64,000 bases of DNA from Zygnema cylindricum (taxonomy: Eukaryota; Streptophyta; Zygnematophyceae; Zygnematales; Zygnemataceae): assembly GCA_037447655.1 (NCBI GenBank), contig JBBHKE010000307.1:67738-131737 (forward strand), in the 5' to 3' direction. A model generated the notes under the pieces. The model saw only the letters and a program-made list of their open reading frames with translations, was not told the origin of the DNA and did no database searches. How positions within the stretch are numbered: position 1 is the first letter of the stretch; every line of letters begins with the position of its first letter. Made by a program: the position numbers and the translations under genes. Below, piece by piece: positions 6,957-59,819 of this stretch.

Positions 6957-8014
6957 CTCCCCTTATTTTTTAGTCTATTTTCCTTTTAACTCCCACAAAA
7001 AAATTAACAAACACCCTTTTTTTTTTCGTTTTCCTTTTCCTTTCATAAATTTATGAAAAATGCTCTCGTAATTACAACAATGCATTTGATGAACCAAAAT
7101 AAAAATGACATCACACATTTTTTTTAGCATCCCACTTTTTATAAATCTGAGCAAAGATTTAGTCCACATCCCTTTTCCATCCAAAATAAACCCAATTTCC
7201 CTCTTGCAATTGAAACAGCCAGCCCTATCTCCAATTTGCAACTTTGAGACCTCCATACGTCCTCAGAATGGACAGCTTACAAGAAGCCTCTAAGATTTTA
7301 AGCGGTTGAAACAATATTATGAAAATATGTCCAACCGTTTGACTGTCAAATTTATACTCAACGGTGTATTGCTTCGCGCGGAGAGCAAACCATGGTACAG
7401 GCCGAAACAAGGAGACTCGCGAAGGGTTGAGGAGAGAAATGTCAGCCGCAGGATAACCTCTTGAAGACTCTCGCGGATGCCGGTTCGACACATTTCGAAT
7501 TAGCCTGCGAAGATGTCACCAGGCCAAGTATACCTATCGCCGGGCCAGGTATACCTTTATTAGGTGGCGGCGTACAGCGTCTCGTGGGAGGGCGCAAACA
7601 GATAAAAAGGTGCTTTCGCGGTGGGTGATGTCAAAGTGTCAAGTAAAAAAAAAAAACAATTAAAAGTTAAAAACCAACGCACGAAAGAAGGCGTCCCAAA
7701 AAAAAAAAAAAAAACAAAAAAACAGATGTGCTGTCATTGCCGCTACGCTGCCATTACACCTATATTGTCGATCTCCTCGATATGCTGCTACTCAAAATAG
7801 AGTAGTTAATCACTCAATTTGTTGCTGGTCGGTTGGTCCTTTGCGGCCATAAGGTTGTTTGAATTAATTATTTTTTTGGTCCCCATCTTTAATACATTTT
7901 TAATGATGTTTAATTAAATATATTGTTCAAATTGTGGAATATTAATGCATTAATCGTAATGTAATACTACATTTATACATAATATAACACAAATATAAAA
8001 ATAAATACATTGAC
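6957..8014. other. Polypurine tract stub and gene-free DNA
   Basis: Positions 6957-7060 hold the polypurine tract and a short internal stub of the adjacent Copia copy. Beyond that no coding sequence is recognised. Two homopolymer A runs lie at about 7646-7658 and 7698-7714. A direct repeat around CCAGGTATACCT and CCAAGTATACCT lies at about 7520-7555. Confidence 0.5.
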
Positions 8015-8900
8015 TATCCGATTAAATCTTGGAGAAAATGTATTTATAAAATAAAAAAACTCAACAACGGATGAGAATAGTTAGTCGTTGTTTTCATTTA
8101 TTTTTATGGTATCACAAAACGAATAATAGTACAAATTTTACTCCCACGATCGATGTTATCGTTTTTCTATCTTACAATGTTTCAAGCCCGCATATTAAGT
8201 TTGACAAATACAACGACTACAATTTGAATAGACCATAATAGAGAAACTATATTCGGTTTGTGTTAAGTTATAGTTTGTTATACATAAACCAAAAGCATTA
8301 AATAAACCTTTTTAATCTAACGTAATCATTCATAAATTTTTCGAAATATCCGATTAAGTATTCGACAAAAGGCATTTAAAAAAAAAATAACAGATAAACG
8401 ATGATAATAATTAGCCGTTTTTTTTATTTCCTCTTATTGTATAACAAAACGAAATATTGTAGATATTTGACTCCCACGATCGATGTTATGATTTTCTTAT
8501 CTTACAATGTTTCAAGCCTATTAAGTTTGAAAAACACGACGACTACATATTTAATTGATAATGATAGATAAACTATATTTGGTTTGTGTTAAGTTATAGT
8601 TTTTTCATATAAATAATAAAATATCTGATTAAGTATTCCACAAAAGGCACTTATTAAAAAAACACCAAATAAATGATGATAATTTTTAGTCGTTGCTTTT
8701 ATTTACTCTTACAGTATCACAAAACGAAATATTGTAGATATTTCACTCCCACGATCGTTGTTATGATTTTTGTGTTTTACAATATTTCAACCTTATTAAG
8801 TTTGACAAACACAACGACTACATTTTTAATCGACCATGATTGATAAACATATTTGGTTTGTTATAAGTTATAATTTGTTATATAAACCAAAAAACTTTAG
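8015..8900. repeat. AT-rich tandem repeat, three units of about 275-330 bp
   Basis: Three head-to-tail units share the block CTCCCACGATCG (at 8141, 8471 and 8746), TTACAATGTTTCAA, ATTAAGTTTGA and AACGACTAC, and a unit start CGATTAAGTATTC. Spacing is 330 and then 275 bp, from a deletion in the second interval. No open frame spans the units. Confidence 0.85.
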
Positions 8901-9071
8901 CTAAAACTTTTCAGCCTAACTTAATTTTTTATAAAAATAATGAAATTAAAATCATACACATATAGAATTAGTGTGTGTGAACACGATATCCAACTTAATG
9001 ATGAAAACACAGTAGGCAGCAAATATTGAATAATTTATTTTGTAAATACCAATTAAAATGAAAATATTTAT

Positions 9072-9215
9072 GAAACAGGTAACAACAAACATTAACTTCG
9101 ACAACATCAAAGGTTACAAGTCTATTTTTATGAAATTATTTTTGAAACAAGTTACAACAAACATTAACTTCGACAACATCAAAGGTTACACGTCTTTTTT
9201 TATCAAATAAAAACA
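9072..9215. repeat. 72-bp direct tandem duplication
   Basis: Two adjacent 72-bp copies start GAAACARGTWACAACAAACA at 9072 and 9144. Both contain TTAACTTCGACAACATCAAA and differ at only a few bases, so the duplication is recent. Confidence 0.9.
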
Positions 9216-9460
9216 CAAGTTAAAACAAAGGAAAAAACAAATAGAACATAAACATATCATTGGCCGAAAAAAACAAATATATAAGCAAACTCATTACGCG
9301 AGTTTGAATTTATGAAAAAATCAGTTTAAATACATCATTATATATTATTATATATGTTTATAGAAAGTTTTAAAAGAAAAATAAAATCATTTATAATAAG
9401 TGCCAAAACAGTCCCACAAACTACAATTTAGTTTTTTTTGTTTTCAGTCGCTAATCTCTT

Positions 9461-9801
9461 TCATATGTCGCGTAGACTCCATTTGTTCACGAATTGGCGA
9501 TCTTGCAACATGCTCAACGCCTTCCTTAATGTTACATCATTCACCTCTGCTATTCTTTTAACTTCCTCCAAGATGATATTCCGATTATAAAAATTTTGAT
9601 ATTCTCCTTTCCTCCAACTAGTGCCACTTGATTCCAAATCGGCGATGAAGGGAGCCCACCTATACCATCATGGTATGCTTTCCACACATCTTTAACTGTG
9701 TGAAGCCGCGCTCCAATTTGAGTCATCAAAGGTACTTGATATGATTTCTCTTGTGAAGGAATAGGAGGTGGAAATGGTTCAATTGCTCGTGCCGTTTTTA
9801 T
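9461..9801 (-). pseudogene. Crypton C-terminal GCR1_C-like domain
   Basis: The minus strand below the Copia insertion reads ARAIEPFPPPIPSQ, VKDVWKAYHDGIGGLPS, then after a one-base shift near 9645 ADLESSGTSWRKGEYQNF, YNRNIILEEVKRIAEV and SLRDI, ending with TGA at 9461. The W-x4-G pattern, the WR(K/R) motif about 25 residues later and the following helix match GCR1_C domains carried by Cryptons and by fungal Gcr1-type regulators. It probably binds the element's ends. It is separated from the rest of its gene by the Copia element. Confidence 0.72.
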
Positions 9802-10665
9802 TGTTTTGAAATGTTAGTTTCGTACGTACGCGACATTTTGTGCGCACGCGGCATTTCCTGCTTAATTTATTAAATGAATTTATTGTGGAGGTTCGAATGG
9901 TTTCGAGGATTGGGGGGGGTGAATGTGTTGATATATATTGTTTGGGGACGAACGAAATAGAAATTGACTGGCGCGGAATGCTAAATTGAAATGGATGGCG
10001 GATCGCGAAGCGATCCGATTTGAAATATTTGAAGGGTTTTAAAATGTACGATGGTCGTACAAACATAATGCGACAGACATATTTATGAAAAAGGACGCAA
10101 CAAGTACAGAGCGACTTATTCGGCAAGTAGACTTGAATGCACTTCGTGATGTCATAAGATATTTGACGACTTACGTGGATCTCGTTTGGATTTTGTGACC
10201 GCGCGGAATTGAGTCAATCTACAATGTTTATTTTGGACGATCTGGATACTTTGAATAAATTCAAGGAATCTCATTGAGTTACGTTGCGTGACTCAATATA
10301 CTATTTTGTGAGATTGTACGTACGTGTAAATATTTGGTCAAACATTGTTTTGTCTTTTGTGTATTAAGTAATAGTGTACGTTTACTTATTTTGACATACC
10401 ATGAAGTATTCGGGTATACCAACATTAATACAGGTAGTTGCTAGATAGCGTATGGCTGGTATGCCTCCGTACACTCAGCAATAAGCTCGTATATATTTGT
10501 AGGACTTAGTCATTTCAGGACTTAGGAACTTTCTGTATAAAAAATTGTTTATGGAAATTTTTGGTTATTTCATCTAAGGATTGCTCTAATATCTGTTGGC
10601 AGAATTATCTGAAATTTGTTATGTGTGTTCCTCTTTGTATTGTTAATATTGTCAGAGATTTGCAG
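9802..10665 (+). repeat. 5' LTR of the gag-only Copia element
   Basis: It starts TGTTTTGAAATG at 9802 and aligns with 12576-13440 nearly base for base in blocks such as GGTTCGAATGGTTTCG and GCGAAGCGATCCGATTTGAA. The end is uncertain because similarity runs on into the leader. TGGTAT followed by GTG near 10680 could be a weak primer-binding site. Confidence 0.75.
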
Positions 10666-10775
10666 GGCTATTGTGTGCCTGGTATGTGTTTAACTTCATT
10701 GTGAAGTTAGTGTGTTTTATTAAAGTTCTGGCAGATTGTTTTCAGGTAGTCTCTGGTGCTTCCGAGGGTGAATCC

Positions 10776-12126
10776 ATGGCTAGAAATGGTTATCGACAAC
10801 AAGTTATGGGCCTACGCCCATGGCTACCCATATTGGATGAATCCTACTTATCTCTTTTTGTTAGATCGGGTTATTACCGCTGGAGGAGTATTATGGAGAG
10901 CTACTTCAAGTTGAGGAAGCTGATAGATGTGGTGGATGGGACATGTGTCAAAACATCGGCGGAATGGGAGGAAAAAAATTTGGAGTTCTTGAGGATCATC
11001 AATCTATCTATGAATGAGGAATTTGTAATGATGTACCTTGATGTGAAGAGTGCAGTTGAATTGTGGAAGTGGCTAGAACGTAATTATCAAAAGACTTATG
11101 TGTATCACCGGATGATTATTGCTACTAAATTATTTGAAAATAAATATGATGGAGGTAGCATGTTAAAATATTGCCTTAGTTTGCAAAGATTGTTTGTAGA
11201 AAATGATATTGCAGGAGGACACTTTACAAATGTTCAAAAGGCTCTCTTGTTAATGAAAGGATTACCTAAAGAATATAGGTGTGCTTTAGATAGATTAAAA
11301 AGAAGTTGATAAAAAGAATTGGAGCTTACCTTTAGCAATCAGATTTGTTTTAGATGAAGAAGATGATAAAGAGGCTTTAAAGAATAGGGGGAATTTTCAA
11401 GGTGTGAGATCACAATTTCAGAAAAATAGAAAAAGTGGTAAATCAAAAATTTATCTTTATTGTAATGCTTTAGAACATACTTTCAGAGTATGTCCATTAT
11501 ATAAAAGTGCATGTGTCACAGAAAATATTCGAAATGGATGGGATGACAATCGCGTTCGACCCCCTACACGAACGGTTACACTTCGAGTTGATGAATTTGT
11601 ATACTTACTGACTATTATTTTTCGAAATATTGAAAATGAGGAAGGAAGGGAAACATTTGTTGTCACCGAAAATAGAGTGGAGAAAGCAGTGCCCAAAAAG
11701 GATTTGGTTTCTATCAATTTTTACGATGACAGATTGGTGAGTGATAAATATTTAGAAGAGGAAGAGGTTATTAAAGTGAGAATAGTTAGAAGAGGTGAAG
11801 GTCATTTGGAAGTGGAAACCAAAAATAATTTGCATGAGGAGATTACTGTACTTAGAGAGAGAGAGAGGAAAGGTGTTCAAAAAATTGAATTAAAAGAGAA
11901 ATGTCATGATAGTGGGAAAAAAAATGAAATAACAAAAATCAGAAAAATCAGAAAAGAAAATTGTGATAAAGGCATTAATTTTGACAAGACATCAATTTGC
12001 AATAAGAGAACAAAGAAAAGATGCAGATATCAAAAGACCAACAATAAAAGAAAACATTTGCAAAATGTGATCAAGAGAAAACATCGTGAAAAACAAATTT
12101 ATGGAGGATTTTATCTGGGAAAATGA
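10776..12126 (+). pseudogene. Copia gag with long basic extension, one frameshift
   Basis: The start ATG at 10776 begins MARNGYRQQ, repeated in the leader copy at about 13710. The first part carries the Copia gag fold: SGYYRWRSIMESYFKLRKL, AVELWKWLERNY and LLLMKGLPKEY. A one-base shift near 11298 moves reading to VDKKNWSLPLAIRFVLDEED, and the frame then stays open to 12126. A degenerate zinc knuckle, YCNALEHTFRVCP, keeps C-x4-H-x4-C but has lost its first Cys. The last 130 residues are very rich in Lys, Arg and Glu and do not resemble protease or integrase. Total length is about 450 codons. Confidence 0.72.
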
Positions 12127-12575
12127 ATTTAAGGAGAGTTTTCATCTTTAAGGATTTATATAACATGTAAGTCATATGAAAATAGTCACTTTTGACATTC
12201 GCCAAGCTTGTAAGATTCGGATTTGGCATTTGAATTTTGAAATTAGATTGAAAAGATCTTTTTATATATTTTTGAAGACCTAAAAAGAGGCAAGAGAAAT
12301 AAAGGCGTAGTCGAGAAGGATGTATTTGGAAGGAGAGATTGGAAGCAATTGTGTGTTATGGAAAGACGAATTTGAGAAGATGTGGCTGGAAAGACGAATT
12401 TCAGAGGACATGGTTGGAGGCAGCATGAACAATGGTGACGTCAGCGAAAGCACTGGTGACGTTTGAACGAAGAAAAAAAAAAAGGAGAAATTTGGAGGTA
12501 CGAGAAGGTACAGTTACATTTGACACGTTGCATACTTTGTTATGGGTTCACGAAACTAAAATTTCGGGGGAGTAT

Positions 12576-13440
12576 TGTTTTGAAATGTTAGTTTCGTGCG
12601 TACGTGACGTTTTGTGCGCACGGGACGTTTTGTGCTTAATTTATTAAATGAATTTACCATGGAGGTTCGAATGGTTTCGTGGATTGGGGGCAGTGAATGT
12701 ACGGATATGTATTGTTTGGGGACGAACAAAATAGAAATTGAGTGGCACGGAATGCTTAATTGAAATGGATATCGGATTGCGAAGCGATCCGATTTGAAAT
12801 GCTTGAAGGTTTTGAAAATGTACGATGGGCGTACGAAACATAATGCGACAGGTATATTAATGAAAAAGGACGCAACAAGTATGGAGCAACTTATTCGGCA
12901 AGTGGACTTGAATGCACTTCGTGATGTCATAAGATATTTGACGACTTACGTGGATTTCGTTTGGATTTTGTGACCACACGGAATTGCTTCAATCACACAA
13001 TGTTTATTTTGGACGATCCGAATTCGTTGAAGAAATTCAAGGAATCTCGTTGAGTGATGTAGCGTGGCTCAACATATGATTTTGTGAGATTGTGTGTACG
13101 TGTAAATATTTGGTCGAGCATTGTTTTGTCTTTTGTGTATTAAGTTTTAGTGTAGGTTTACTCACTTTGACATACCTTGAAGTATTCGGGTATACCAACA
13201 TTTATAAAGGTAGCTGGTAGATAGCGTACGGCTGGTATGCCTTGGTACACTCAGCAGTAAGCTCTTGTATATATTTGTAGGACTTGGTCATTTCAAGACT
13301 TAGGAAATTTCTGTACCAAAAACTTTTTATGGACATTTTTGGTTATTTCATCTAAGGATTTCTCATAGATTTGTTGGCAGAATTATCTGAAATTATGTAT
13401 GTGTGTTCCTATTTATATTGTTAATATTGTCTCAGAGTTG
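12576..13440 (+). repeat. Second LTR of the gag-only Copia element
   Basis: This is a direct repeat of 9802-10665, preceded by the polypurine tract GGGGGAG at 12566-12572. It differs from the first copy by scattered substitutions and small indels. Confidence 0.8.
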
Positions 13441-13735
13441 CAGGGCTATTGTGTGCCTGGTATGTGTTTTGATTTTTTTTGAAGTTAGTTTGTTTTATCA
13501 AACTTCTGGCACACTATTTTTTTGCAACTTTGACTAGATGGTGTGATCACTATGTTTATTTTTTTTGTCAAAAACTTTGTGAGATTATTCAATAGCTTAT
13601 ATAATACCTGTTAATTTAGTTTCAGTTTGTATTGTTGATTCTGTCAAATTCTGTGTGTATCCAAAGTAGGCTGTTTTTGGGGTAGTCTGTGGTGCTTCTG
13701 AGGGTGAATCTATGGCTAGAAATGGCTATGACAAC
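13441..13735 (+). repeat. Partial second copy of the Copia leader and gag start
   Basis: It repeats the segment 10666-10800, with a roughly 170-bp insertion, and ends shortly after ATGGCTAGAAATGG. Crypton coding sequence follows on the opposite strand, so this end marks one insertion junction. Confidence 0.75.
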
Positions 13736-14203
13736 AATTTCCACATGAGTTTCATGTTGCTCGTCTTCCTTTCAAGGAAGATCACGTTCAAGAGTCCCAA
13801 TTCCCATCGTTGATTCACCTTCTAATGGTTTATTTTGATTTTGAGAAGGTTGTCTTACATGAAACGCCTCTCCTTCACCATCCATCACATGCATAATATG
13901 CGTTAGCTTATCATCTACACTACACATTTTCTTATTCATTGTTGAAATTTTATCTTTTATATAATGCATTTCCTCTCCCATATAATGAATCTTTCTTCCA
14001 CAAGTTTCACTCCATATGAATAGCGAATCAACTGATTTTCCCACTTGTGAGATTGTAATCAGCACATTTGCTTTGGCATCAGCAATTGAAGCCCACATGT
14101 GTGATGCTTCATGACAAGTTTTTTTGACTTCCTCTTTGAACAACGACCACAAACGAGATTGTAACATTTTGTGCTTGAAGATAGAAAGATCAGGAAATAA
14201 ATC
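13736..14203 (-). pseudogene. Crypton exon, helical linker region
   Basis: The acceptor TTTTTTTCAG at 14204-14213 precedes an exon reading DLFPDLSIFKHKMLQ, DSLFIWSETCGRKIHYM and MHYIKDKISTMNKKM. This fits the helical segment between recombinase and GCR1_C-like domain in Cryptons. The frame is closed by TGA at 13772-13774 but continues sensibly as KEDEQHETHVEIVV up to the Copia junction. The stop is therefore probably a later change. Confidence 0.7.
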
Positions 14204-14649
14204 CTGAAAAAAAACATGGTTTTGTAAATACACACTTTTGAGCCATTACATGGTGTGAAGGAAATTTTGTGTGGCTCGAGCATTTTTTGTGCACAAAAAA
14301 ACATTTGTATGGTTCATCAAAAAAATTATTCATTAAGATTAAAACAAAAAAAAGAATGCATTAAATGAGAAAAAAATAAAAAGAGATTGAGAGGGAAAGA
14401 GAAAAAAAAAACCAATTAAAGGAATACAAAATTACCAAAAAACATATAAAAAACTACATAAAAACAGTAAAACAATTGAAAAAATGGAAAAAACAATTGA
14501 AAAGTTAAAAAAAAGTTAATATAAAAAAAAACAATAAAAAAAAATCGATATAAGTGATACAAGAAAAAAAAACAGAGTAATATAAAAAAAATGTGACGAA
14601 CGTTAACACAAAAAGTAATGATAGAAATGGTGAGAGTTTTTATAAACAT

Positions 14650-14871
14650 AGTGTTGGAAGCTCAACATATGTCGTTTCGACCCATGGCTAAAACATAGCA
14701 CAAAGAGTAGCAGGGGGTTTCACTTTGGAACGAGGTAGAATTTTTTTTTTGGTGTTGTTTTCGAGGCTAGAAGCTTGAAGAAGAATGTCCGTTGGCAAAT
14801 CCGTGACATATGAGTATGAGAAGTGATCGGATGTCCAACGTCCCATCACTTTGATGGCTTCTCGATCAGCA
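14650..14871 (-). pseudogene. Crypton recombinase exon with catalytic Tyr
   Basis: The acceptor AG at 14872-14873 joins in phase to the previous exon (GG joined to T). The exon reads ADREAIKVMGRWTSDHF, SYSYVTDLPTDILLQ and ILPRSKVKPPATLCAMF. A TAG at 14688-14690 follows, and then PWVE. The GRW motif and YxTxLP segment match the Crypton recombinase C-terminus; the nucleophile is one of the Tyr codons at 14811-14819. LPR...PWVE is also a recurrent Crypton signature, so the TAG interrupts a once longer exon. Confidence 0.82.
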
Positions 14872-14990
14872 CTCAAATATTTACCATAAAAAAAATCAAA
14901 ATTTCAAAAATGAGAACATAAATAACAAACCTTCATTATTTCAAGTAAATGCATGAATAAAAATCAAATGTTAAGTTTACAAAAACGCAC

Positions 14991-15302
14991 CCTCTTGTCG
15001 CCAATATTGTTGCTCCTTGACCACGTCCGGCATGGGTTTTATGTTTTTTTTATATACTGAAATTGTGTATTGTAGCAAAGAGGTTGCATGAACGGTGTTT
15101 CTTTTCCTTCTTGGTCTTTCGCTAAAACTCCCTCTTCCGTGAAAGGCTCACCATACCAGGTTTCTTGTGTCGAAAAATTGGGAATTGCATTTTTATTTGT
15201 TGCTAATTCCCACCTCCAAAAAAACTCTTGGGCCACAGCATCTACCGTACAAATAAAAAAGTCTAAGTGACGCATGCATCCGATAAATTCCGCACGACCG
15301 TT
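14991..15302 (-). pseudogene. Crypton recombinase exon with HxxR box
   Basis: The exon starts after TTTTTACCGCAG and reads NGRAEFIGCMRHLDFFIC, VDAVAQEFFWRWELAT, FSTQETWYGEPF and, after a homopolymer shift, HKTHAGRGQGATILATRG before the donor GTGCGT. HAGR (15023-15034) is the catalytic HxxR. An eight-base A run (15044-15051 on the plus strand as T) is one base too long for the frame. Phase with both neighbouring exons is correct (0 before, 2 after). Confidence 0.83.
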
Positions 15303-15423
15303 CTGCGGTAAAAAAATACCATAAAAAAACCGAAAAGAATTAGTAAAACTTGTTTTTGGGTTATGCACAAAACATTACAAAAATACACATTTCATTAAAG
15401 CTCCACTTTTATAGATTACTTAC

Positions 15424-15577
15424 CACATTAGTTTTCCCATTTCTTGTAACCATCGCCAAAACATAACCCTTGTTTGGCCCAAGATAAGGAAGATCATACA
15501 AAAAAACATCCGCTAATTGAGCATTTATGGAATCATCGCCTCGACTGAGACACGTATGGTTCATGATAAATTGACTC
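15424..15577 (-). pseudogene. Crypton recombinase exon with first catalytic Arg
   Basis: After the acceptor TTTTGTAG the exon reads SQFIMNHTCLSRGDDSINAQ, LADVFLYDL and YVLAMVTRNGKTNV, and ends at the donor GTAAGT. The Arg in LSRGDD (15541-15543) fits the first catalytic Arg of tyrosine recombinases. The GKTN before the splice and NGR after it match the Crypton phrase between the Arg and the RH block. The upstream join is one base out of phase. Confidence 0.82.
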
Positions 15578-16038
15578 CTACAAAAAACAAAAACAAAACA
15601 TCAAAGAGACAAAAAATGACAATTTTACATATATAATGAGAGTTTTTTTTGAAAAAAGTATACCCTTTCTCCCAAAAATCAAAAATTGCATCACAAAAAA
15701 AAAAAAAAACAACACAAACAAAAAAAATGATAATGTTACAAACATAATTGGTACTTTATTTTAAAATAATTTATACTTTCTCCCAAAAACAAAAATTGCA
15801 CATAATTTCCGTATCTATTTTAAATAGACTTTGGAGTTAACTTAAAAAATCTTTTTGAATCCCAAAAAAAACATGTAAAAAAAAATGTAATATAAAGTCA
15901 AAAATTAAAATCTAATCCCTAATATAAGAAAATCAGATAAAAAACTCAAAAGGAATGCACCCTATAAAATAAAGTGTTAAGTAAAAAACATGAATGAAAC
16001 AATGAAATACAAAATTTAGTATTTTTATCGATACATAC

Positions 16039-16190
16039 CTCACTTAAATAGTGGTGTATGGTTCCATCCCCAATTTTTTTTCTTTGTGCTTCGGCCAACT
16101 CCAAGCAAAATGTTGAAAATCCTTTGTAATCTTCGAGAGAATACGCTTCTTGTATGCCTTCTTGACGGTCTTCATGGTTATTTTTTTTTA
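16039..16190 (-). pseudogene. Crypton exon before the recombinase core
   Basis: The minus strand reads NHEDRQEGIQEAYSLEDYKG, ELAEAQRKKIGDGTIHHYL and SE, and ends at the donor GTATGT (16033-16038). This fits the YT-E-Q-F region that precedes the first catalytic Arg in Cryptons. The upstream boundary and its join to the N-terminal exon are uncertain. Confidence 0.65.
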
Positions 16191-16255
16191 AATTTGATGT
16201 ATTTTTTTTGGACTTCTATAAAAGTTTTTGGATGATATTGTTGTCTCTAAGATTT

Positions 16256-16546
16256 TCACATCCCCCTTCTTTTTATGGCTAATTGCGTATTATACAAGTC
16301 TTGGAGTCCTTCCACCCATTGTATGAGTGTGGTATAGCTTTTATTTTTGTTATTCTTCAATAGTCCAATAACCCCATCAGGTGTAATAGCTACATTTGGG
16401 TGTCCTTGTGCACTCCAAAAATTTTCATACTGATTTAGACCAACTTGATAAGCTTTTTTTGTGTTTGGGTTATGTTGTTTTAATGTATCTTTCATGATGC
16501 GTGCTCTATCTGTTTCACTATATTGTGGGAGGTTTATAGGAATCTT
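16256..16546 (-). pseudogene. Crypton N-terminal core-binding exon
   Basis: An acceptor-like TTTGTTCATTTAG precedes KIPINLPQYSETDRARIMKD, then NTKKAYQVGLNQYENFWSAQ and SYTTLIQWVEGLQDLYN. Helices of this kind form the SAM-like core-binding domain of tyrosine recombinases. The first coding exon upstream was not found. Confidence 0.7.
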
Positions 16547-17251
16547 CTAAATGAACAAATTTTTGACAGTTTTCAAATGTGAGCCTTGAGACAATACTAG
16601 GTAAAATTTAGAAAATTCCCTTACGCCAAGAAAACATTGAAAAGAAAAAAATTATCAAGATGAAAAAAAAATATAATAAAAAGAAAATAATAAGAAAAAC
16701 CTTTAAAAAGTTTAATTTAAAATAAAGGTGTTGAAAGAAAAACAAGTAAAGAATAAAAAAGATGAAATAAAAAAAGTAAAAAAATAACAAAAACGAAAAT
16801 TCAAAACTGTAGGATTTAGGGTTAAGCTATAAGATTTAGGGTTAGGCTGTAGGATTTAGGGTTGAGCTGATTTAGCGGTTAGTTTCAACACTAGAAACGT
16901 CATAACGTAAATCAGAACCTATGGTTAAAAGGTACATCATAAATAGATTAACATAAGCCCATATTTACTTGCGTTTCAAAACAATACAATTTGAAACGTA
17001 ATCATTTGCGATACATACTAAAAAAAATTGGTCCACATTTGAGCGTACGAAATTCGCCCGGAGGGCTAATGTACATTCGAGAGTGCAGAGCGTACAAAAT
17101 TCGTGTAGAGAGGTAATCTACATTGGCGAGTACGGATTTCAATTTTACCACGTACGAACATCCGCGAGGAGAGTTAATCTACATTGAAAAGTACGGAATT
17201 TCACTTTCGACCATACAGAGTATGATAAGTAGCGTCACATTTTGGAGTTAG
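16547..17251. repeat. Telomere-like and GTAC-rich short repeats
   Basis: Three copies of a roughly 25-bp unit containing GATTTAGGGTT lie at 16809-16869. At about 17040-17220 three degenerate units of about 60 bp share CTAATSTACATT and a flanking CGTACRAAATTCG. No coding sequence is recognised. Confidence 0.6.
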
Positions 17252-18024
17252 TAAGGGCGTGTCCCCATGTGTTCAAGTAAAGGTTTTTTTCCGTCGTTTA
17301 CATAGAAAATGGGACTCCCTACTTGAAAATATTACGCCGTACGAAAAATGGGCAAAAACTAAAATACAGTTTGTGTCATCTTGTAACTTGAAAGGTACAG
17401 CGATTTGGCAGTATTATCATTGCGACCCACTTCAACGTCATCTTGACACCTACACTGAAATCAAATCGCGACTTGCTTTTAATCAAAATATTACCCTATT
17501 GACGAATAGAAAGTTGGGGTTGCACGCGTGAATAGTTTTCAATTTTTTTTTGCACTTAGGAGAATACACGAAAAAAAAATTGTTTGTCCGTTTGCTTATG
17601 TTTCGTTTGTTTGTTTCGTTTTATGGATTTTATCTCCAACACGGTCTGCTGATATTGCAGCGGTGTAGTGACCCTTTCCAAAAACAAGAATTCCAAGAAG
17701 GAGCTGCACGCTACCTCTTCCCTTGTATCTCCCACTTCCCCTCTCACTGTCCTTCGATTTTTTGAGCGTTTTTAAGTGTAATTTAATTGGAGATCGCTAG
17801 TCGCCGACTAACAAAGGGAAAACAAGATAAATTCAAAGGCTTGTTTTTTTGCCATCGCATAAGGTAATTTAGTATTACAATTTTTTAATTATGTATTCAT
17901 ATTTTTTTCATTTTTATTCGTGTGCAACATAAAATCTTTATGATTTTTTTTTTACTTCTCTTACATATGCTTATTGCCTTCATCGTGTTTTTCATTATAT
18001 GGTTCATGACTAACAAAAAAGATT

Positions 18025-18790
18025 GGCAAATAAAGGGAGAGGGAGACTGAGAGAGAGAGGGAGAGGGAGAAAGAAAAGCATACAAAAGAAAGAGGGACAG
18101 TTTGAGAGGGAAAAAGAGTGGGAGGGGAAAAGACAGAGGGTGAGAGAGGAAGGGACAGATTAATAGAGAGAAAGAAAGGGAAAAGGAGAGGGAGATGGTG
18201 AGAGAGAGATGGAGAGAGGCAGGCTGAGCGTGAAAAGAGTGGGAGGGGAAGAGGGAGAAGGAGGGTGAGGGGATCAAGAAGAGGGGGGATAGGGGAGAGG
18301 GAGAGTGCGAGGGATAGGGAGAGGGCGAAGGATAGGGAGAGGGAGGGGGAGAAAGAAGGGAGGCAGATCTAGAGGGAAAAGGAGTGGGAGGGGGGGGAGG
18401 TTGAGAGAGGGGGGGAGGGGTAGAAGGAAAAGGAGTGGGAGAGGGAGAGGGAGAGGAAAAGGGAGAGGGAGAGGGAGAAGAAGGCATATTTAGAGGGTCA
18501 AAGAGCGGGAGGGGGAGAGGGAGAGGGAGAGAGAGGGGGGGCAGATTTAGAGGAAAAAAGAAAAGGAAAGGGAGAGGGAAAGAAGAGAAGGAGGTAGATT
18601 TAGAGGGAAAAATAAAAAAAGGGGAGAGGGAGAGGGAGAGGGAGAGGGAGAGAAAAATGGGGCAAATTTGGAGGGAAAAGGAAAGGGAGGAGAAGAGGAC
18701 GAGGGAGAAGGGGGCAGATTTTGAGGAAACAAGAGTGGGAGTTGGAGAGGGAGAGGGAGAGTGAGAGGGAGGTGCTTATTTAGAGGGGAA
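18025..18790. repeat. Homopurine minisatellite inside the Harbinger element
   Basis: The plus strand is almost all A and G. Successive units of 60-110 bp combine a spacer such as GGCAGATTTAGAGGGAAAA with runs of GGGAGA. Open frames here on both strands arise because purine runs lack stop codons; they are not genes. Confidence 0.85.
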
Positions 18791-18862
18791 AACAGTGTAA
18801 TGGTTCTCTAACTACAATCAATCTTGTGTCTTTCAATTTTGACAGCTCTCCTCAAAGATAAT

Positions 18863-20033
18863 ATGTCAAAAAAAGGGAAGCAGAATGCATCTCATAATAA
18901 TATCATTAACACAAACGAGCCATTAATCAATCTTTCATCTTATACCCCACCCTCTTCAATGCACACCCCGCAAATGCCACCTACAATATATCCGTTAACA
19001 CATCTTGTCTCTTCTAATCCTATATTCTCTTACACCCCATCCTGTTCTATACATACCCCGCAAATGCCACCAACAATTTCTCCACTAACTACTCTCTTCG
19101 CAAATCCTGTAGTAGCCACCACAAATCTACTGCAAAGACCCATAATGACCCCACCAAGACGTAAAAAAAACACGGAAACCCCCTAAACTAAAGGCGAAAA
19201 GTGGGAATTTGACGAGATAGAACTAGAGTTTCTTTAAAACCTAGGGATTAGTGCAAAGGCTAAATTCGGAATCATGGCTGAAAAATGGGGGGATCTCGCC
19301 AAAATTATGGAAAAGTGCGGGGTTCATCGCCTTTGGACTGAGTGCGAACGCAAATGGAATAATGTAACGAGTGAGTTTTAAAAAATCAGAGATCATAACG
19401 AGAGAAGTGGTGTTGCCACCTATTTTACAATGGGAAAAAAAAAATGGAAGACAAATGGTTTGCCACCGTCGATTCCTAAAGCAATTTTTGATGAATTAGA
19501 ATAATGGTTGCCGATGCGAGACGCTATCAACCCCAAGGTTACGTGGGATACCGGGGATGACCTCCCAAAGGTGGATGATGATTTTTTAGACAACGAAGAA
19601 GATACAGTTATTCTTGAGGAGAATCCAAAAAAAAAAAAGTAACGTTCGTGGTGAAACTGCTTGTGCAAACTTCGCGAAAGTACATGGATTTGACAAAAAT
19701 GTATGTGACGAAAAGGAGAAGAAGAAGAGAGAGGATGAAGGAGATGATGAGAAGGGCACAGGATTTCATTCGCCTTTTAATGGGGATAAGTTCACCTCCA
19801 CTCAGAAACGAAAGCGAGTCATGCGCAAAGGTAATCAAGAAAATTCGTCACATGCGGTAAAAGAAGTCGAAGAAATGTTGGATAATTCAGGCAGAAAACA
19901 GTTTGAGAGACAAAAAGAGATTGTGAGCATACATAAAGAACTCTTAGGCTCTGTGGAGAATGTTCTTAAGGGGGTCATCGAGGAAATGAAGATGACAATC
20001 GCAACAAATGTAAAAAATATTTTCAATAGTTAA
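18863..20033 (+). pseudogene. Harbinger trihelix/Myb-like DNA-binding partner
   Basis: In Harbinger elements the second gene recruits the transposase to the nucleus and the element ends. The frame starts at ATG 18863 (MSKKGKQNASHNN). It has a Pro-rich section with two copies of HTPQMPPTI, then KWEFDEIELEFL, FGIMAEKWGDLAKIMEKCGV and ECERKWNNVTSEF, a Myb/trihelix-like domain. After an A-run frameshift near 19630-19640 it continues to 20033 with a Glu/Lys-rich tail and a likely coiled coil (QFERQKEIVSIHKELL). Four in-frame TAA codons interrupt it, at about 19184, 19234, 19378 and 19502. Confidence 0.7.
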
Positions 20034-20219
20034 GTTTTTTGAATATAATAATGTACCTCCAAATACTTAGTATTTTTTGAGTTTTTTCAAATAGTAAAAG
20101 CATCAAATTCGTATTATAGAAAAAAATATTTTTGATTTTTGGGCCTTACTGTCAAGCATATGGTTAATTGGTTTGAGATATGATAAAAATTGGAAAACCA
20201 AAACTAATCAACGTGATAA

Positions 20220-20590
20220 TTTATTTTGTTTCTATTTTTTGTTTTGTGGGTTTTTTTTTTTTTTTGCTTTTTGTTTTTTTAGTAGTTTTTTTAATTTTTT
20301 AGTTTTTATTTTCTATTTTTCTTTCTCCTGTTTTCTCTCTTATGTTTTTAGATGTATTTTCTATTTTATTTTGTTTCATTTTCTTTGTTTTATGTTTTTT
20401 TAGAGTTTTTATAATTTTTATGTTATATTTCTTATGTTTTCTTTCTTTGTTTTCTGTCTTCTGTTTTTACTTTCTGAGCTCTGTTTTGTTTTTTCTCTTA
20501 CGATTTTTTTGCTACCTTTTTTCCTTTAATATGTTTCTTTGTTTCTGTTTTCTGTTTTTTAATTTTGTATTTTTTGTTTCGTGATTTTGT
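20220..20590. repeat. T-rich low-complexity block
   Basis: Runs of TTTTT with interspersed G and C on the plus strand give a Phe-rich open frame of no apparent meaning. This is a stop-poor composition effect. Confidence 0.8.
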
Positions 20591-21316
20591 ATTTAGGTGC
20601 TTAATAGTTTTAAAAATTTGTTTTCACATCATGACTCATGAAATAACGTGTTCACATTGACAACTCTAAATTCTTGGTTTTTTTTAAGTGAATTTAAAGT
20701 TTGATACACAAAACTATTAAACATCGAGTGAAACAAAATGCACCGAAGTAAACATAAGAAGAAAATATAAAATATATGCATGAACACAAATCAAATGGAT
20801 AAATAAAAATATCCTTCAAACAATAATTCATTGAAAACAAGTCTTTTATAGTACCAGGTACATAAAGAGTGGAATAGGATGTATATGAAAACAAACACTA
20901 GGGAAGCACATGATTTCAAAAACGAACATTGGCTGTAAAAAACAATGTCATACAAATTTAAATATCCAAAAAAATGATGTGGAAATATATAAAATTATTG
21001 AAACATAGGTTTTAATGAAGCCCATAACTCATATTGAAAATAAATTGCTTTAAAATTATTGGGCAACTATGTACTAGCACGAGTTCCTAAAAGACGAAAA
21101 AAAACCTTGACACCATTGTACGAAAATCACAAAATACACATTTTACTAATCGTCGATGTCCATTTCGTCGCCATTTTGGTCGTTGTCGTCAATCAACATA
21201 TCTATATCCCCTTCTCCATCCACATGAGGAACATAAATGCCGGTATTGTTATGTTCAATAGCCCCACCCCTCATGACAAAATCACGTAAAATGTCTCTTA
21301 CTCCAACACCCTGGAG

Positions 21317-22474
21317 TTAATGGGAGCGAGAAACAGTCGGTCGTCTTTCCACATCTCCACTTGCTCGTGCTAGTCGTTCGCGAGCTCTAGGCAAGCGAGA
21401 GGCCCTTTCTTCAATGTCAGTTACATTTTTTGCTTGTTCTTTCGCAAACTCCAACTCCCAATCGATATCCACCTCGTTCCTCGCAATGGAAATGTTGTGT
21501 AATACACAAGCAGCTATGATGAAAGTCAACATCGTTTCTATCCGTGGATGGTAAATTTTTTGGAAATACCTCCATTGCCCTTTTAGCTTCCCAAAAGCCC
21601 TCTCAATAACCATCCTCAACCCCGAATGTTGAAAATTAAATTTTATCTCAACTGCAGTAAGTCTCGCACCGGGGTACGGCACTACAAGGTTCGCATGTAG
21701 AGTGTACCCTGCATCTCCAACGAGGTACGGAAACACATTATTGTTTTTCCTTTGGAAAACATTCCCACTTGATTCCATACGCCTTTGAAAATCTTGACCC
21801 AATTTTGATCTACGAAAAATCCGTGAATCGTGGATTGATCCGGGAGATCCTACATTGAGATCAATAATCATTTTGTGGTCTACAACTGTTTGTACTACTG
21901 TGGAATAATTGTTCTTAGCGTCAAAATAATCGATCGGTAATATATTTTTTCCAAGTGTCATTTGTAAATGAGTACAATCGATAGCTCCTACACAATTGGG
22001 TAACCCTTTGTCTTTTTCGAAGAAATCTTTCGTCTCTTTAAGTTCGTCTTTAGTTGGCCACCTTACCCAGTGACGTAATTTTTTCACTATTGCCAATTAC
22101 TTTACGAGAAATTCTAACATTGAACTAACAGTCGAACGTCCAATACCAAATTCCACTGAAGTACGTATCAGACTTCCTTGGTGTCCTAACCTCATTAAGG
22201 CTATTAGAACCTGATTTTCTGTGCTCGATTCTCTACTTGGGATGTTTTGGAGTCATGAGGGAGGGTTAGTTTTGAGGTCACTCTCTAATTCTTTCACCAA
22301 AAACACCACAGTATCTTTTTTCAATCGAAACATTTTTCGAGAACGCTTGTCACTATAACGTCCTAATTCTACATCGGCCCAATGTAATGACCTCGGCTTG
22401 ATATAGTAAACCCTATTTGATTCAGATTGGAAGCTTGACAAATGTCGGAGGGTTATTTTTACAATTTCAAACAT
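21317..22474 (-). pseudogene. PIF/Harbinger DDE transposase with two stops
   Basis: The minus strand reads NQVLIALMRLGHQGSLIRTS, FGIGRSTVSSMLEFLVK, then NCVGAIDCTHLQMTLGK, NVGSPGSIHDSRIF, YLVGDAGYTLHANLVVPY and LRMVIERAFGKLKGQWRYF. These are the helix-turn-helix and the DDE blocks (Asp of AIDCTH, Asp of GDAGY, Glu of IERAF) of the DDE_Tnp_4 family. The last 259 codons are open. TGA at 22253-22255 and TAA at 22096-22098 break the N-terminal third. The length of about 385 codons is normal for the family. Confidence 0.92.
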
Positions 22475-23688
22475 AACTTTCGCAAAAATCTCTTCAAAAA
22501 GTTGTTAGCTTTGGCTATCATGTAACATGGGTGGTATGAGGAATTTGAATATCATTTGCAAAATTGTCGAGAAGCCCAATAAAAAATTTTCAACTATCAT
22601 TGCCGCACAACGTTTTTTTTTTCCAGAGTCATCCTGCATGCCCACCCTTTCAATATTATAATCTTGTTCGAAGGTTGTTATCATTTGTCAGCCAAATTGA
22701 AATGCCGATTCCAATTTTAATTTCAACTTTCAAATTGTAAGTGGAGTTTTTTAATTTCAGTTTTAAACTTTAAAAATCTAAAAATGTTGATGTCAATGTA
22801 GATTTCAATTTAGAATAACATTGTGTTTTTATTTAAGTTGGATTCTTATTTTTGTTCCTAATGTTCCTTGTTTATTTTCAATCCGAATTGAAATATTTGT
22901 TTGCTTTTCAAATTGTAATCTGACTAAAAAAATTTGATGTATACTTCCCATTTCAATTATAATTTGAATTTCAACAAACCCGAATGTGCAAGTTTAAGGG
23001 GTTTACCCTATTACATAAGCATCTTTCGCTATATTGCTTCCAAATGTTTGGTGTTCTCAAAAATTGTATGAAAACAATTTTGTTGGCAACCAAAATGATT
23101 CGGTTTTTCTCAAAAATAATTTAGTCTACAGTAGAGGTAATGAAGGGTCGTATGTGCTGCCCGTTTTTTTGTCTGAATGGCGAATGCTATAATTGCGTTA
23201 AATAGAAAAGTGTAGAAAATGGAAATAGGCAGGCGGACAAGATCCACCAAAACTACGCACATGGCAGTGAAAGAAAGCGTGACGTCTACAATGTCACGCT
23301 AACCATTCAATGTCAATTTCACTACTTTTGTAATGTACAGCCCATTTGTGGACGTAGGCGATTGCTTATGTCGTTTACACGTGGGCGTTAACAAATGACC
23401 CCTAGCGTCGACAATTCTCCCAGTATGTTAGGAGCTCTTTGCCGCTCTTTGCCGCGTACAAATGTCTGTAGTTTCTTTGGAGATCGTTCGCTTCTACAAA
23501 TATCAGCAATTTGTTGGCTTCTACAGGTGTAGCAAGTATTGGCGACATAGACAACTGCCACATATTCAAAATAATGAATGCACAAGTAACGATTCACATA
23601 GGCACACTTTGAAAAGCACACCGTAAAATCAGCGCTTAATTCCAAAATAACGTTTCAAAATATTGGTTACATGGGGACAAGGCCCTAA

Positions 23689-24496
23689 GTAGTACGCGCG
23701 GATTTGTCTTGTACTTTTTAAAATTTCAACATAAATACCTTCTCCGCTTTGAAAATATCTTCTCCCCCTTTCAAAATACTACTTCAATAATGACTGTAGG
23801 ATATCTTTACACTATCCGCGTATTATCCTCATTTCACGTTGCATAGTAAAAAAAAAATCGCCTGCAGCGCCATTTGACAACAATATGACTGTACTTTTTT
23901 TTTGTTTGTAATGTCATACGTAATATGTTCTCACGTGACGCCCAGCTAATTTTTATTTTTGTTTTTTATGTCAAAGGTCAAGTGTTCTCACGTGATGCGT
24001 GACTCAGTTGTTCGACGGATTAAATGGTGTAGTGTTTAAAGTGTGAATGTTTATTGTATTATGTAGATATTTTGAGTCGCGAACGCGATTTACATGTTGT
24101 CATGCGACGCGTGTGATGCTATTTGAGGTGAATTCTCTATATGAGAATGTTGTAAGTGTGAACACTTTGTATATTTTTGGTTTTTTTTGGTACATCTGAC
24201 CTAATCAGCGAGGAGACTCCTAAAAAAAAAAATCTTCGCGCTTCGCACGAAACTTTTGTCCTTATCAATAACTAGAAGGGATTTACATTGCCCGAGCAAA
24301 ATCCTCCTTGAAGGTCTCAGCCGCCCGCCAAATGTGCCCTCCCCCCAATGTGGAATACCACCACAGTACTTTATTTGTACCAATGTGTACTTCAAACGTA
24401 CATTTTTTGACAAAATGACGTAAGTGACTGTGCTCAACCAAAACAGTCACTGTCATGATCAATTCCGTTTTTTTAAGATTTTCAGAATCTAGATTC
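23689..24496. other. No gene recognised
   Basis: AT-rich DNA. Two copies of a short block with TTCTCACGTGA lie about 60 bp apart near 23930-24000. No coding match was found. Confidence 0.5.
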
Positions 24497-24499
24497 TAA

Positions 24500-25275
24500 G
24501 GGTATGTCCCCATGTGCATAAGTAAGGGTTTTTTTTTTATCGTTTTGCTATAAAACTTAGCGCTGTACTGCCTAAGTTCCAACCGTACGAAGGAATCACA
24601 AATTTGTAAAGTACAATTTGCTTCATCCTCGAACTTATGATGTACAAAAATTTGTCGTCTTGTGTTTTTCGACCCACTTTGAAGACAAAAAATGTCATCT
24701 TCAACCTTATATTTAAAACACATGTGCGATGTGTTTTAAAACTAAGGATTTTCTATAAACAAATAGGAATATGTATTCGCAAGTGTCGTAATATTCGAAA
24801 TTTTCATACGATTTCTAAGGACAAATAAAAGTACGAAATTCGCTATTTTTTGTCAGTTTCCATTCCAATACGCCAAAGAAAAGTACATAATTTGTTTGGA
24901 TTTGTCCGTTTTCGTCCAGTACGGATTTCTTTTTTGCAGGGGTCTTCAAATTCAGATGCCATTTCACGTCGACCGGACAGGAGTCGCAAAGGCAAAGCGC
25001 CTCGTATTCAACCGGGAAACGGCACAGGTTGGAATGCGCTACGTCTACAATGTCACGGTAAGACATGGACGTCACAAGCAGTTCCAAAAAATATCGTGGG
25101 ACCACAGATTGTAGACGTTAACAGCCGTCGCAGGTATTGTTGACGTATACAATCGTCAAATGCGTAAGTTACAATTTCGTCTTTACAGACATAGGGAATT
25201 TGGAAACCGGGTCTGGCGGATCCGCGCTAAAATACAAAGTAAGCTCGCTAAGTTACAGTACATGGGGACAAACCC
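24500..25275. mobile_element. Short non-autonomous Harbinger relative
   Basis: The ends GGGTATGTCCCCATGTG and the complement of GGGTTTGTCCCCATGTA match the termini of the 17.3-kb element. TAA flanks both sides (24497-24499 and 25276-25278). The first 200 bp also resemble its left end (AAGTAAGGGTTTTTTT, later CGACCCACTT). Length is 776 bp with no transposase. Confidence 0.88.
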
Positions 25276-32100: not shown

Positions 32101-35100
32101 GGTCCAGTAGTAGTAGTACTAGCAGACATGACAAGATGATTGGGCGGAAAAGAATGGAGAGGTGGAAGGATTAGGCAATGTGGGTAGATTGACATGTAAT
32201 GGGTGACCGTCAAAGGAGTAGAATGTTGTGGAAATTGAGGTGTAGGAGGAATGGGATAACTGTGCGGAAATTTGGGGAAAAACAGGCTGGGTAGAGAATA
32301 GGGGAAGTGGATTGGGCTATGGGAAAACGTGAGCCGTTTTGATGTCACCGCCAGATTTGGCGGAATTGTGACTTGTGCCGCCTTTTTTCATAGCCGGCTT
32401 GCAACATTTGGTGGCCGTGTCCTTGTTTCTTGCAATAATTGCAAGTGACTGACAGCCCTCCCCTCAGGTTAGATTTAAACTTGTCTCCAAAGTAAGTGGT
32501 GACGTGGGAAGGGTTTGATGGATAAAAGGAAGATATTTTTCTTTTCTAATTGATACACAAGCGAGAAAAAAAATGGGATGATCAAGATTATCAAACGATG
32601 ATAGAAAAGAGGTACAAGATTTGGGTAAACCACCTAATAGAGTGGATGATAAATCGTTTTTAGACAATTAGACGCCAATCATTATACTCTTTTCTAAGGA
32701 TATGGATCCTGTTGGTTTCTTCATTAAGTTGAAGAAAGCTCGTTTTTGGATTCAAGGAGTTGCCCATCCAGTTTGTACTTATGTGACGTCAATTGAGACT
32801 AAGCGTCGATCATGTTGAAAGCGTCTCAATTGAGGCATGTCTTCTCTATCTATAGCACAATCACCAATCGAGCGTGGGCGTTGTCGTCTTTCAACTTCCA
32901 TTCGACGATTTCCTTAGATTTGGTGGTTTTGGTGGCTGTATCATCAGTGTTAACAATGATAAGAGGTTTTGACACGCTTTTCAAAAGATCCCATATTTTA
33001 TGAATGTGCGTAGTTGAATGACCAATCCTAAAATTTTGTGCCATCGAAAAATCTGGATATTATTAGAAGTTGCATGGTTTGGCCCATGACCTGTTTGGCC
33101 CATGGGTTGTTAAAAGCCATGACAAATGAAAAACTGCATGTTCAATTTTTTGTGATCAAGTGATTATTTCGTTTAGACAAAAGATCCTTTTATACAAAGT
33201 ATCATAACGCTAATTACTGTGGATAGTAATCTAAGACGTTACGTAGAGCGAGATTTGGATGGCTAAATGAATACCAAATGTGTTACTCAAAGTTAACCGA
33301 TGATGGAAAAGAATCAAAATGAAAGAAAAAAAAATAAAAATAATAAACGTACAAGTTATAGACCATTAAGTGGAGTATGGACAAGTTGACTTAGGACAAA
33401 GAGGAGTAAAGTAAACGTAGCATAATCAAGTGGAATATGCTCAAGTAGACATAGGACAAGGTGGACGTACGGATTGAGGAGAGAAGAACATAACGCTAAA
33501 TCACCTTCACAAGAGAGAGCGTAAAAGAAAAAGAGGGCGAGAAGGAGAGAGGGAGAGAGGGTGTAGGCGAGAGAGGGACGGAGAGTGAGAGAAGGAGAGA
33601 GGGAGAGGGAGAGAAACAGAGTGAGAGAGGTAGTAAGATGAATAGAGAGAGAGAAAGAGAGAAAAAAAGAGATAGAAAGAGAGACATAGGGAGAGAAGGG
33701 TAGCGAGAGAAAGAGAGATCGAGGACCTGGGTGCGGGCGAGGGCGCAGGCGAGGGCGAGGGCGAGGAATAGGGTGAGGGCAAGGGAGAAGGGGAGGGAGA
33801 GGGCGAGGGAGAGGGAGAGGGTGAGGGAAAGGGCGAGGGAGAGGGAGAGGGTGAGGGAAGAGAGAGAGAGGGCGAGGGCGAGGGCGAGGGTGAGGGAGAG
33901 GGTGAGGGCGAGAGAGAGGGGGAGGGAGAGGGCGAGGGAGAGGGAGAGGGCGAGGGAGAGGGCGAGTGAGAGGGAGAGGGAGAGGGCGAGGGAGGGAGAG
34001 GGCGAGGGCGAGGGCGAGGGAAGAGAGAGAGAGGGCGAGGGCGAGGGCGAGGGTGAGGGAGAGGGTGAGGGCGAGAGAGAGGGGGAGGGAGAGGGTGAGG
34101 GAGAGGGAGAGGGCGAGGGAGAGGGCGAGGGAGAGGGAGAGGGCGAGGGAGAGAGAGGGCGAGGGCGAGGGCGAGGGCACGGGAGAGGGCGAGGGCGAGG
34201 GAGAGGGCGAGGGAGAGGGAGAGGGCGAGGGAGAGAGAGGGCGAGTGCGAGGGCGAGGGCACGGGAGAGGGCGAGGGCGAGGGAGAGGGCGAGGGCGAGA
34301 GAGGGGGAGGGAGAGGGTGAGGAAGAGGGAGAGGGTGAGGGAGAGGGCGAGGGAGAGGAAGAGGGCGAGGGAGAGGAAGAGGGCGAGGGCAAGAGGGAGG
34401 AAGAGCGAGGGCGAGGGCGAGATGGAGAGCCAGGGAGAGGGGGAGGGAGAAGGAGAGGGAGCGAGGGGGCGAGGGAGAGAGGGGGAGAGGGGGAGAGGGG
34501 GCGAGGGGGAGAGGGGGCGAGGGGGAGAGAGGGAGAGGGGGCGAGGGGGAGAGGGGATGAGGGAGAGGGGGAGAGGGAGAGGGGGGGAGAGGGAGATTGG
34601 TGAAGAGGGGGAGAGGGGGAAAGGAGGAGATGGGGAGATTGGGAGAGGGCGAGAGGGGGAGAGGGGGAGAGAGGGGGAGACGGGGAGGTGGAGAGGGAGA
34701 GGGTGAGAGAGGGAGAGGGGGAGAAGGAGAGGGGGAGAGGGAGAGGGGGAGAGGGAAAGGGAGGGGGAGGGAGGGGGATAGAGGGGAATAAAAGGGGAGA
34801 GAGAGGGGGAGAGAGGGGGAGAGAGAGCGGGAGATAGTGGGAGAATAGGAGAGTGATTGGGATAATGGGAGTCGGAGAGTGGGAGAGAGTGGGAGAGATA
34901 GTTGGAGAGTTGGAGAGTGGGAGAGTGAGTGGGAGAGTGGAGTGGGAGAGTGAGAGATAGCGAGTGGGAGAGAGAGTGGGAGTGGGAGATTGAGGGGGAG
35001 AGAGAGGGAGAGTAGGAGTGGGAGAGAGAGGGGGAGACTGGGAGAGTGGGAGAGAGAGTGGGATAGTGAGAGAGAGAGGGAGGAGGAGAGAGAGGGACGG

Positions 35101-58080: not shown

Positions 58081-58539
58081 TTTCCCTCTATGATAAAGGC
58101 CATCTCATCATTTATAGCTCTAATCCATTTGTCTTTCTTTGGGTTGTTTACGGTCCCCCGAGTATGACTGAGGCTCCACTAGATGAGATAGCTTAGTTAC
58201 CTTGTGAGCCGCCTGTTTTTCTTGAATCCTTTTGCTGCTCCTTCTCCCCCCCTCAAACTCTGAGGCTGAGATGGAGGGAAGTCTTGGATTTCTCCTAAGT
58301 GTCTCATCGGCTCCCCTATCCATGGAAGCCGGTTCTAATCCCTCCTCTTCAATCTCCTCGAAGTCCATAGTAATATGTGACGTTTCCGTTGGATTGCCTT
58401 TGTCTTTGATCTCCCCTGAATTTGCAATCCCTATTTCACTCATGTCCCTCTCAGGAAGGATGGAGTCCCCCTCATTTTCAGACTCAAATCTGATTCTTAT
58501 CTTTTGGTATATTTAAAAGGGTCAAATGATTTCCCTTCA

Positions 58540-59563: not shown

Positions 59564-59586
59564 AGACGTAGAGACAAGATTTTTAC

Positions 59587-59800: not shown

Positions 59801-59819
59801 TGTGGAGCTTCCCGAATTG

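Follow-up and report, generated by a model that had tools for sequence, protein, structure and literature searches.

Evidence for a multicopy CryptonF-type tyrosine-recombinase transposon family in a streptophyte genome

Can the scattered coding pieces on the minus strand of a plant-like contig be read as one Crypton, and if so, what kind of element is it and whose genome does it inhabit? Cryptons are rare DNA transposons that move by cut-and-rejoin recombination and not by a standard transposase. The stretch analysed here, called the window, spans 64,000 bases (C237:67738-131737) of the home assembly G000, which comprises 352,776,454 bases in 2,689 contigs. On the minus strand, positions 9461-16546 of the window hold disrupted exons that encode a Crypton tyrosine recombinase. 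The element is very likely a defunct CryptonF-type DNA transposon, one member of a multicopy family in a streptophyte genome. A preliminary description of the locus had proposed that a plant-like genome carries a spliced Crypton whose catalytic motifs are complete; the domain profiles, colinear paralogues, conserved introns, target junctions and the host genes RbcS and GRAS agree with that proposal.

Translation of the minus strand gives, in the order first described, a core-binding region, the catalytic Arg (LSRGDD), HAGR, GRW and the catalytic Tyr (SYSYVTDLP), followed by a GCR1_C domain. In a 17-row alignment all five key residues (R, H, R, W, Y) are present in the window copy, as had been claimed for its catalytic residues. 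The profile search that had been suggested detects both domains. NDC10_II (PF16787; Pfam cut-off 26.3 bits) matches the joined window pieces with an E value of 1.4e-20 and 74 bits over residues 95-377, across four exons; single exons match weakly and under the cut-off (E values of 1.4e-4 and 0.083, and 7.1e-4 for the piece after the Tyr). GCR1_C (cut-off 23 bits) scores 25.7 bits on the fragment 9461-9667, and the window GCR1_C call rests on this fragment because the same region falls under the listing threshold in the joined string. The joins between the HxxR and Tyr exons and between GKTN and NGR were also correctly described as in phase; both cross GT-AG introns, and an intact relative elsewhere in the assembly, L016, has the same introns.

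The window copy is one of many. The assembly contains at least 50 GCR1_C matches, all over the cut-off, which answers the proposal to count copies, and at least 60 exon-level NDC10_II matches, 57 of them marked over the cut-off. Eight of the 50 GCR1_C matches begin at profile position 8 or 9 and apparently represent a second type. Twenty stretches were sampled for comparison, namely 18 first-type copies (L009-L026) plus L027 and L028. All the first-type copies except L017 and L025, which are without the 5' exons, are colinear with the window and match every exon query (16 of 18); the same queries match L027 weakly and L028 not at all.

L016 encodes 722 amino acids without a stop, in exons of 620, 154, 341, 220 and 834 bases separated by four GT-AG introns of 469, 121, 119 and 569 bases. 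Its key residues are R219, H358, R361, W384 and Y393, and both Pfam domains are above their cut-offs (NDC10_II, E value 8.3e-26; GCR1_C, E value 2e-9, 38 bits); the Phage_integrase profile reaches an E value of only 0.031. On this model a functional member would be about 6.9 kb long and express one protein spliced from five exons, with a predicted SAM-like core-binding domain, a tyrosine-recombinase domain of the R-H-R-(W)-Y type, a coiled-coil linker and, at the C-terminus, a GCR1_C DNA-binding domain. No reverse transcriptase was matched in the L016 protein or in nine other open reading frames of L016 (61-119 amino acids), and these nine, the ones scanned among its small frames, produced no credible Pfam hit. 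Within the window, the pieces of DDE and gag sequence belong to nested insertions and not to the Crypton itself.

Comparison of the copies establishes their gene structure, family membership, ends, precise insertion and decay. In the window the Crypton, its flanks and its insertions are arranged as follows.

7363..24364, minus strand: whole Crypton copy including two nested insertions (blastn to L009, L011 and L016 over the full length)
24366..24520, plus strand: left flank, the first ~105 bases being host target repeat (uninterrupted repeat L009:460-569, E value 2.5e-26)
24338-24364, minus strand: left end, GTGGTGGTATTCC (3 mismatches to a consensus-like pattern; 0 chance matches expected)
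23686..24364, minus strand: left (5') terminal segment (88.6-91.8% identity to the left ends of L016 and L009)
17255..23685, minus strand: nested PIF/Harbinger element of 6,431 bases, with TAA repeats on both sides and imperfect terminal inverted repeats GGGC..TGTCCCCATG
21317-22096, minus strand: DDE_Tnp_4 transposase fragment in the PIF/Harbinger element (Pfam)
16039..16637, minus strand: frameshifted exon 1, encoding the N-terminus and core-binding region (93.3% identical to exon 1 of L016)
15424..15577, minus strand: exon 2, encoding the catalytic Arg (LSRGDD) and the GKTN hairpin (95.5% identity to L016)
14991..15302, minus strand: exon 3, encoding the HAGR motif and shortened by a 29-bp deletion (92.6% identity to L016)
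14652..14871, minus strand: exon 4, encoding GRW, the catalytic Tyr (SYSYVTDLP) and LPR..PWV; intron-4 donor lost (CT) (91.8% identity to L016)
13738..14203, minus strand: first part of exon 5, end of the NDC10_II region and coiled coil (83.9% identity to L016; 13738-14271 has 90% identity to L009)
9798..13737, plus strand: nested fragment of a copia-type long terminal repeat (LTR) retrotransposon inside exon 5 (LTR-like repeats 9799-10742 and about 12573-13520)
10647-11309, plus strand: Retrotran_gag_2 in the copia-type fragment (Pfam)
9461..9797, minus strand: second part of exon 5, GCR1_C DNA-binding domain, premature stop at 9461 (9461-9667 above the Pfam cut-off)
7363..9460, minus strand: non-coding 3' portion with the right end (7362-9797 is 92.4% identical to L009)
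7363, minus strand: right end, GCAATACACC (copy comparison)
7212..7362, plus strand: right flank, other half of the same target repeat (L009:571-643, E value 4.2e-4)

Three points of the preliminary description have to be revised in the light of this arrangement. The element is not confined to 9461-16546: the gene starts at an ATG at 16637, and blastn to full-length copies extends the element to 7363-24364. What separates the coiled-coil part from GCR1_C is the copia-type LTR insertion and not an intron. Lastly, a homopolymer shift and two stops understate the damage. Relative to L016, exon 1 has gained 3 bp at one place and lost 17, 2 and 5 bp at others, exon 3 has a 29-bp deletion, the last exon has 1- and 12-bp deletions, and the donor of intron 4 reads CT. 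The copy inserted into a dispersed host repeat and later acquired small deletions and stops as well as the PIF/Harbinger and copia-type insertions.

Homology among the copies stops at common places, which define the ends of the element. Eight of 14 left junctions read RTACC/GTAGTGG or are GTAGTAG-like (the slash marks the junction), two have TATC and four have neither. On the right, TATACC is found at 10 of 12 junctions, with TATACT in L026 and TACACC in the window; the next base is G in 8 of the 12, a sample in which one right flank is common to L019 and L022. A single repeat accounts for the left flanks in the window, L012 and L013, and the right flanks in the window and L026 likewise match one repeat. 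This repeat is uninterrupted in L009:440-720 and in L027 (reverse, about 74-256), where its halves meet at GTACC/GTTGA; the joined junction is AAGTACCGTTGA in L009 and ACGTACCGTTGA in L027. L028 retains the left half plus about 11 bases beyond. The common left flank of the window, L012 and L013 is not an additional stretch of the element, as the uninterrupted copies show it to be host repeat. Because the halves are joined in these uninterrupted repeats, insertion took place at TACC/G with neither target-site duplication nor loss of target bases. Such precise insertion is expected when a tyrosine recombinase exchanges strands within a short shared core, whereas a DDE transposase would not be expected to produce it.

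The proposed course of transposition begins with the GCR1_C and core-binding domains, which would bind the element ends. The recombinase tyrosine would then cut within the short shared core TACCG, and the element would be excised as a circle, whose core could recombine with a TACCG-like core in target DNA. Recombination from core to core would produce no target-site duplication and remove no target base.

Another copy of the target repeat in L009 carries, at about 1286-1876 and close to the Crypton target position, a ~590-bp insertion with ACCGTGAATCGTTATT-type ends. It has different ends and, by eye, is not a Crypton derivative. Telomere-like repeats of the CCCTAAATC type lie directly upstream of the Crypton gene (window 16807-16869) and occupy the same place in other copies, including L016.

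The copies also bear on whether the gene was maintained by selection. Thirteen of the 16 aligned copies retain all five key residues, and L010, L013 and L015 have each lost one. The ratio of nonsynonymous to synonymous substitution rates (dN/dS) of L016 is 0.20 against L011, 0.195 against L024, 0.192 against L013 and 0.18 against L023; it is 0.44-0.53 between close copies and 0.59 between L016 and the window. Exon identity to L016 exceeds intron identity in 14 of 15 copies, the exception being L019; the window does not follow this rule either, because an insertion sits in the alignment. The pattern fits lineages that were selected while active and decayed afterwards.

Several observations weigh against the interpretation as a CryptonF-type family. 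L016 is the only one of the 16 aligned copies without a stop, frameshift or splice-site loss. L011 is open throughout, yet its intron-4 acceptor is AA in the gene model. In a column alignment that may misplace some sites, 7 of 16 copies have something other than AG at that acceptor, and GT-AG is kept at introns 1-4 in 15, 9, 15 and 8 copies, respectively. Constraint is weak in recent pairs (dN/dS of 0.83 for L009-L021 and 0.48 for L016-L015). A TAYC-like core is missing at 4 of the 14 left junctions, and L012 and L013 share the target repeat through their left flank only. Finally, the protein searches described below found no relatives closer than about 30% identity.

How the family came to this genome is a separate question, and it had been suggested that the element either extends the known range of such Cryptons or indicates transfer. 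A search with the window protein gave one match, P0001, among 5,114 candidates. P0001 in turn retrieved 18 proteins including itself, and a mixed-alignment search added three more among the best 7,997 candidates scored; the named sources of these proteins are fungal (Elaphomyces, Suillus). A pairwise profile comparison (hhalign) of L016 and L011 with 13 retrieved fungal-type (CryptonF) proteins yielded a probability of 99.9% and an E value of 2.5e-36 over 347 columns, at 25% identity. Two sets of pattern matches in viral contigs, 7 and 63 in number, contained none that could be confirmed.

Recent horizontal transfer from a fungus, an oomycete or another eukaryote, followed by multiplication, is consistent with the fungal-type character of these nearest proteins. 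According to sections of PMC3212892, CryptonF elements with GCR1_C are recorded in fungi and oomycetes, and transfer between the two has been proposed. However, the host Crypton shares only 22-30% identity with the retrieved fungal-type proteins. An unrooted recombinase tree of 21 rows (three from the host and 18 of the 21 retrieved proteins, P0006, P0011 and P0016 being dropped as short) places the host rows, which represent two families, on one side of a branch with support 90/86 and the 18 fungal-type rows on the other. The split is weak because L027 fills 29% of the columns and several branches are long, and the tree covers neither oomycete, animal or other algal Cryptons nor CryptonA, I and S. 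In addition, an intron after GKTN-x falls at the same codon in L016, L027 and L031, members of three divergent host families, whereas 16 of the 21 retrieved proteins read through this place by pattern (P0018 with a variant) and five have no pattern match; absence of the intron from these proteins is uncertain because P0005 and some others may be spliced annotations. We therefore consider recent transfer unlikely: the extension of range is supported, and transfer is not shown, given that the host copies stand apart from the sampled fungal-type sequences and share an intron.

The reading of the family as a resident of a streptophyte genome requires that its contigs belong to that genome. RbcS gives nine nuclear matches on four contigs of the home assembly, and two of them, L029 and L030, have the short-loop form, which we take to be the streptophyte type. 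GRAS gives 27 exon-level matches on 12 contigs and none in 14 control genomes. Nuclear streptophyte-type RbcS together with GRAS points to a zygnematophyte alga or a land plant as the host. The division of the GRAS matches over exons, and the presence of MeaB next to L025, tentatively favour the zygnematophyte. A search for rbcL in the home assembly found no match, presumably because organelles were removed from it. It is highly improbable that the Crypton-bearing contigs are fungal or protist contamination. No contig of the home assembly was seen to carry both a Crypton and an RbcS or GRAS gene, but RbcS and GRAS occur in that assembly, and Crypton copies are spread over many long contigs. 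The window further contains plant-type elements (Plant_tran/DDE_Tnp_4 and copia RVT_2), and the flanks of other copies contain Ser/Thr kinase, CitMHS and MeaB exons, although neither set is proof of a green host. Also highly improbable is a domesticated gene family comparable to yeast Gcr1 and Cbf2/Ndc10: GCR1_C and NDC10_II are Pfam names of such genes and the diverged copies are under constraint, but dozens of decayed copies with common ends, uninterrupted target repeats and catalytic residues kept in 13 of 16 copies are features of a mobile element.

Some further contents of the window and of the sampled stretches can be recorded here. A CCCTCT-like low-complexity repeat of ~3 kb with strong skew occupies window 33356-36500 and is open in three minus-strand frames; over 34001-36000 the GC content is 0.657 and the GC skew 0.91. 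A second copia-type element lies at 56559-60674 on the minus strand, with RVT_2 (E value 8.9e-42) at 57699-58073. Exons of MeaB, the methylmalonyl-CoA mutase GTPase, stand beside the Crypton copy of L025 at 996-1289 and 2214-2825 (oriented). Transfer RNA and Rfam scans of the window gave no match, and a PDB sequence search gave one chance match only (E value 0.44).

Beyond the first-type family, the genome holds more distant Crypton relatives. L027 (G000:C1544) represents a second family, with GRGNSAR, HAMR, GRW and GCR1_C spread over several exons. L031 (G000:C623:62000-67000, minus strand) is a third, divergent Crypton-like gene with the GKTN-type intron position; the His of its HxxR may be lost, the region looking FKGR-like by eye. 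A 623-amino-acid open frame in L028 (G000:C531; 5036-6904, plus strand) combines a Crypton-like N-terminus with GCR1_C (25 bits, cut-off 23), and no recombinase was matched in it; it could be a non-autonomous derivative or a domesticated gene. A tentative and less probable extension is that CryptonF has long been resident in the green lineage, with at least three divergent families (the L016, L027 and L031 types), in which GCR1_C was released from the recombinase as in yeast. If so, L028 and L031 would be candidate plant-lineage DNA-binding genes derived from Cryptons, parallel to yeast Gcr1 and Cbf2.

As regards novelty, the 2011 survey of Kojima and Jurka reported no Cryptons in plants, according to sections of that paper (PMC3212892). 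In parts of PMC4438587, Crypton is listed among the superfamilies of all the groups studied there, land plants included, which weighs against the strongest claim of novelty, and parts of PMC8729191 and PMC10722297 give Crypton counts from plant repeat annotation. The gene structure or target sites of a plant Crypton were not found in those parts of the three papers, and the main text of PMC11096116 does not contain the word 'crypton'. No description of a streptophyte Crypton with gene, ends and target sites was found in the open-access literature, preprints lying outside the search. The CryptonF-type family is real and known in kind; new, as far as these searches reach, are its host range and the collection of uninterrupted target sites. 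For a streptophyte Crypton, the gene is here described together with its ends, target core and uninterrupted target sites. Plants thereby gain a testable site-specific tyrosine-recombinase DNA transposon, and the family is a marker for the spread of CryptonF and a possible source of domesticated DNA-binding genes.

Among known systems, the closest are the GCR1_C-bearing CryptonF elements, which sections of PMC3212892 record in nine fungi and four oomycetes. Like them, the window family has a tyrosine recombinase (R-H-R-Y) with a C-terminal GCR1_C and short terminal direct repeats without target-site duplication (theirs are 6 bp long in most of the fungal elements and in the five from oomycetes; PMC3212892), and a reverse transcriptase or DDE transposase of its own was not found in the nine L016 frames scanned. 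On every feature that could be tested except tree placement, it thus appears to belong to CryptonF. The differences are the streptophyte host, about 25-30% identity to the retrieved fungal-type proteins, four introns, of which the one at GKTN lies where at least 15 of the 21 retrieved proteins read through, the core TACCG and a target that is often a dispersed host repeat. Elaphomyces granulatus P0005 (GCR1_C and NDC10_II) shares the architecture and aligns at the catalytic positions, GKW/Y and the PPAMLK region among them, although its identity to L016 in the alignment is 28%. CryptonS of oomycetes and a diatom are likewise tyrosine-recombinase DNA transposons with 5-6 bp terminal direct repeats but, according to parts of PMC3212892, are without GCR1_C, which the window family has. 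The DIRS and Ngaro tyrosine-recombinase retrotransposons carry a reverse transcriptase, unlike L016, whose protein and nine frames gave no such match. The same parts of PMC3212892 describe GCR1_C in yeast Gcr1, Msn1, Hot1 and Cbf2/Ndc10, with a tyrosine-recombinase-like middle in Cbf2 and Gcr1 as well; these are host genes that have lost the catalytic site, whereas the window family is repeated and mobile.

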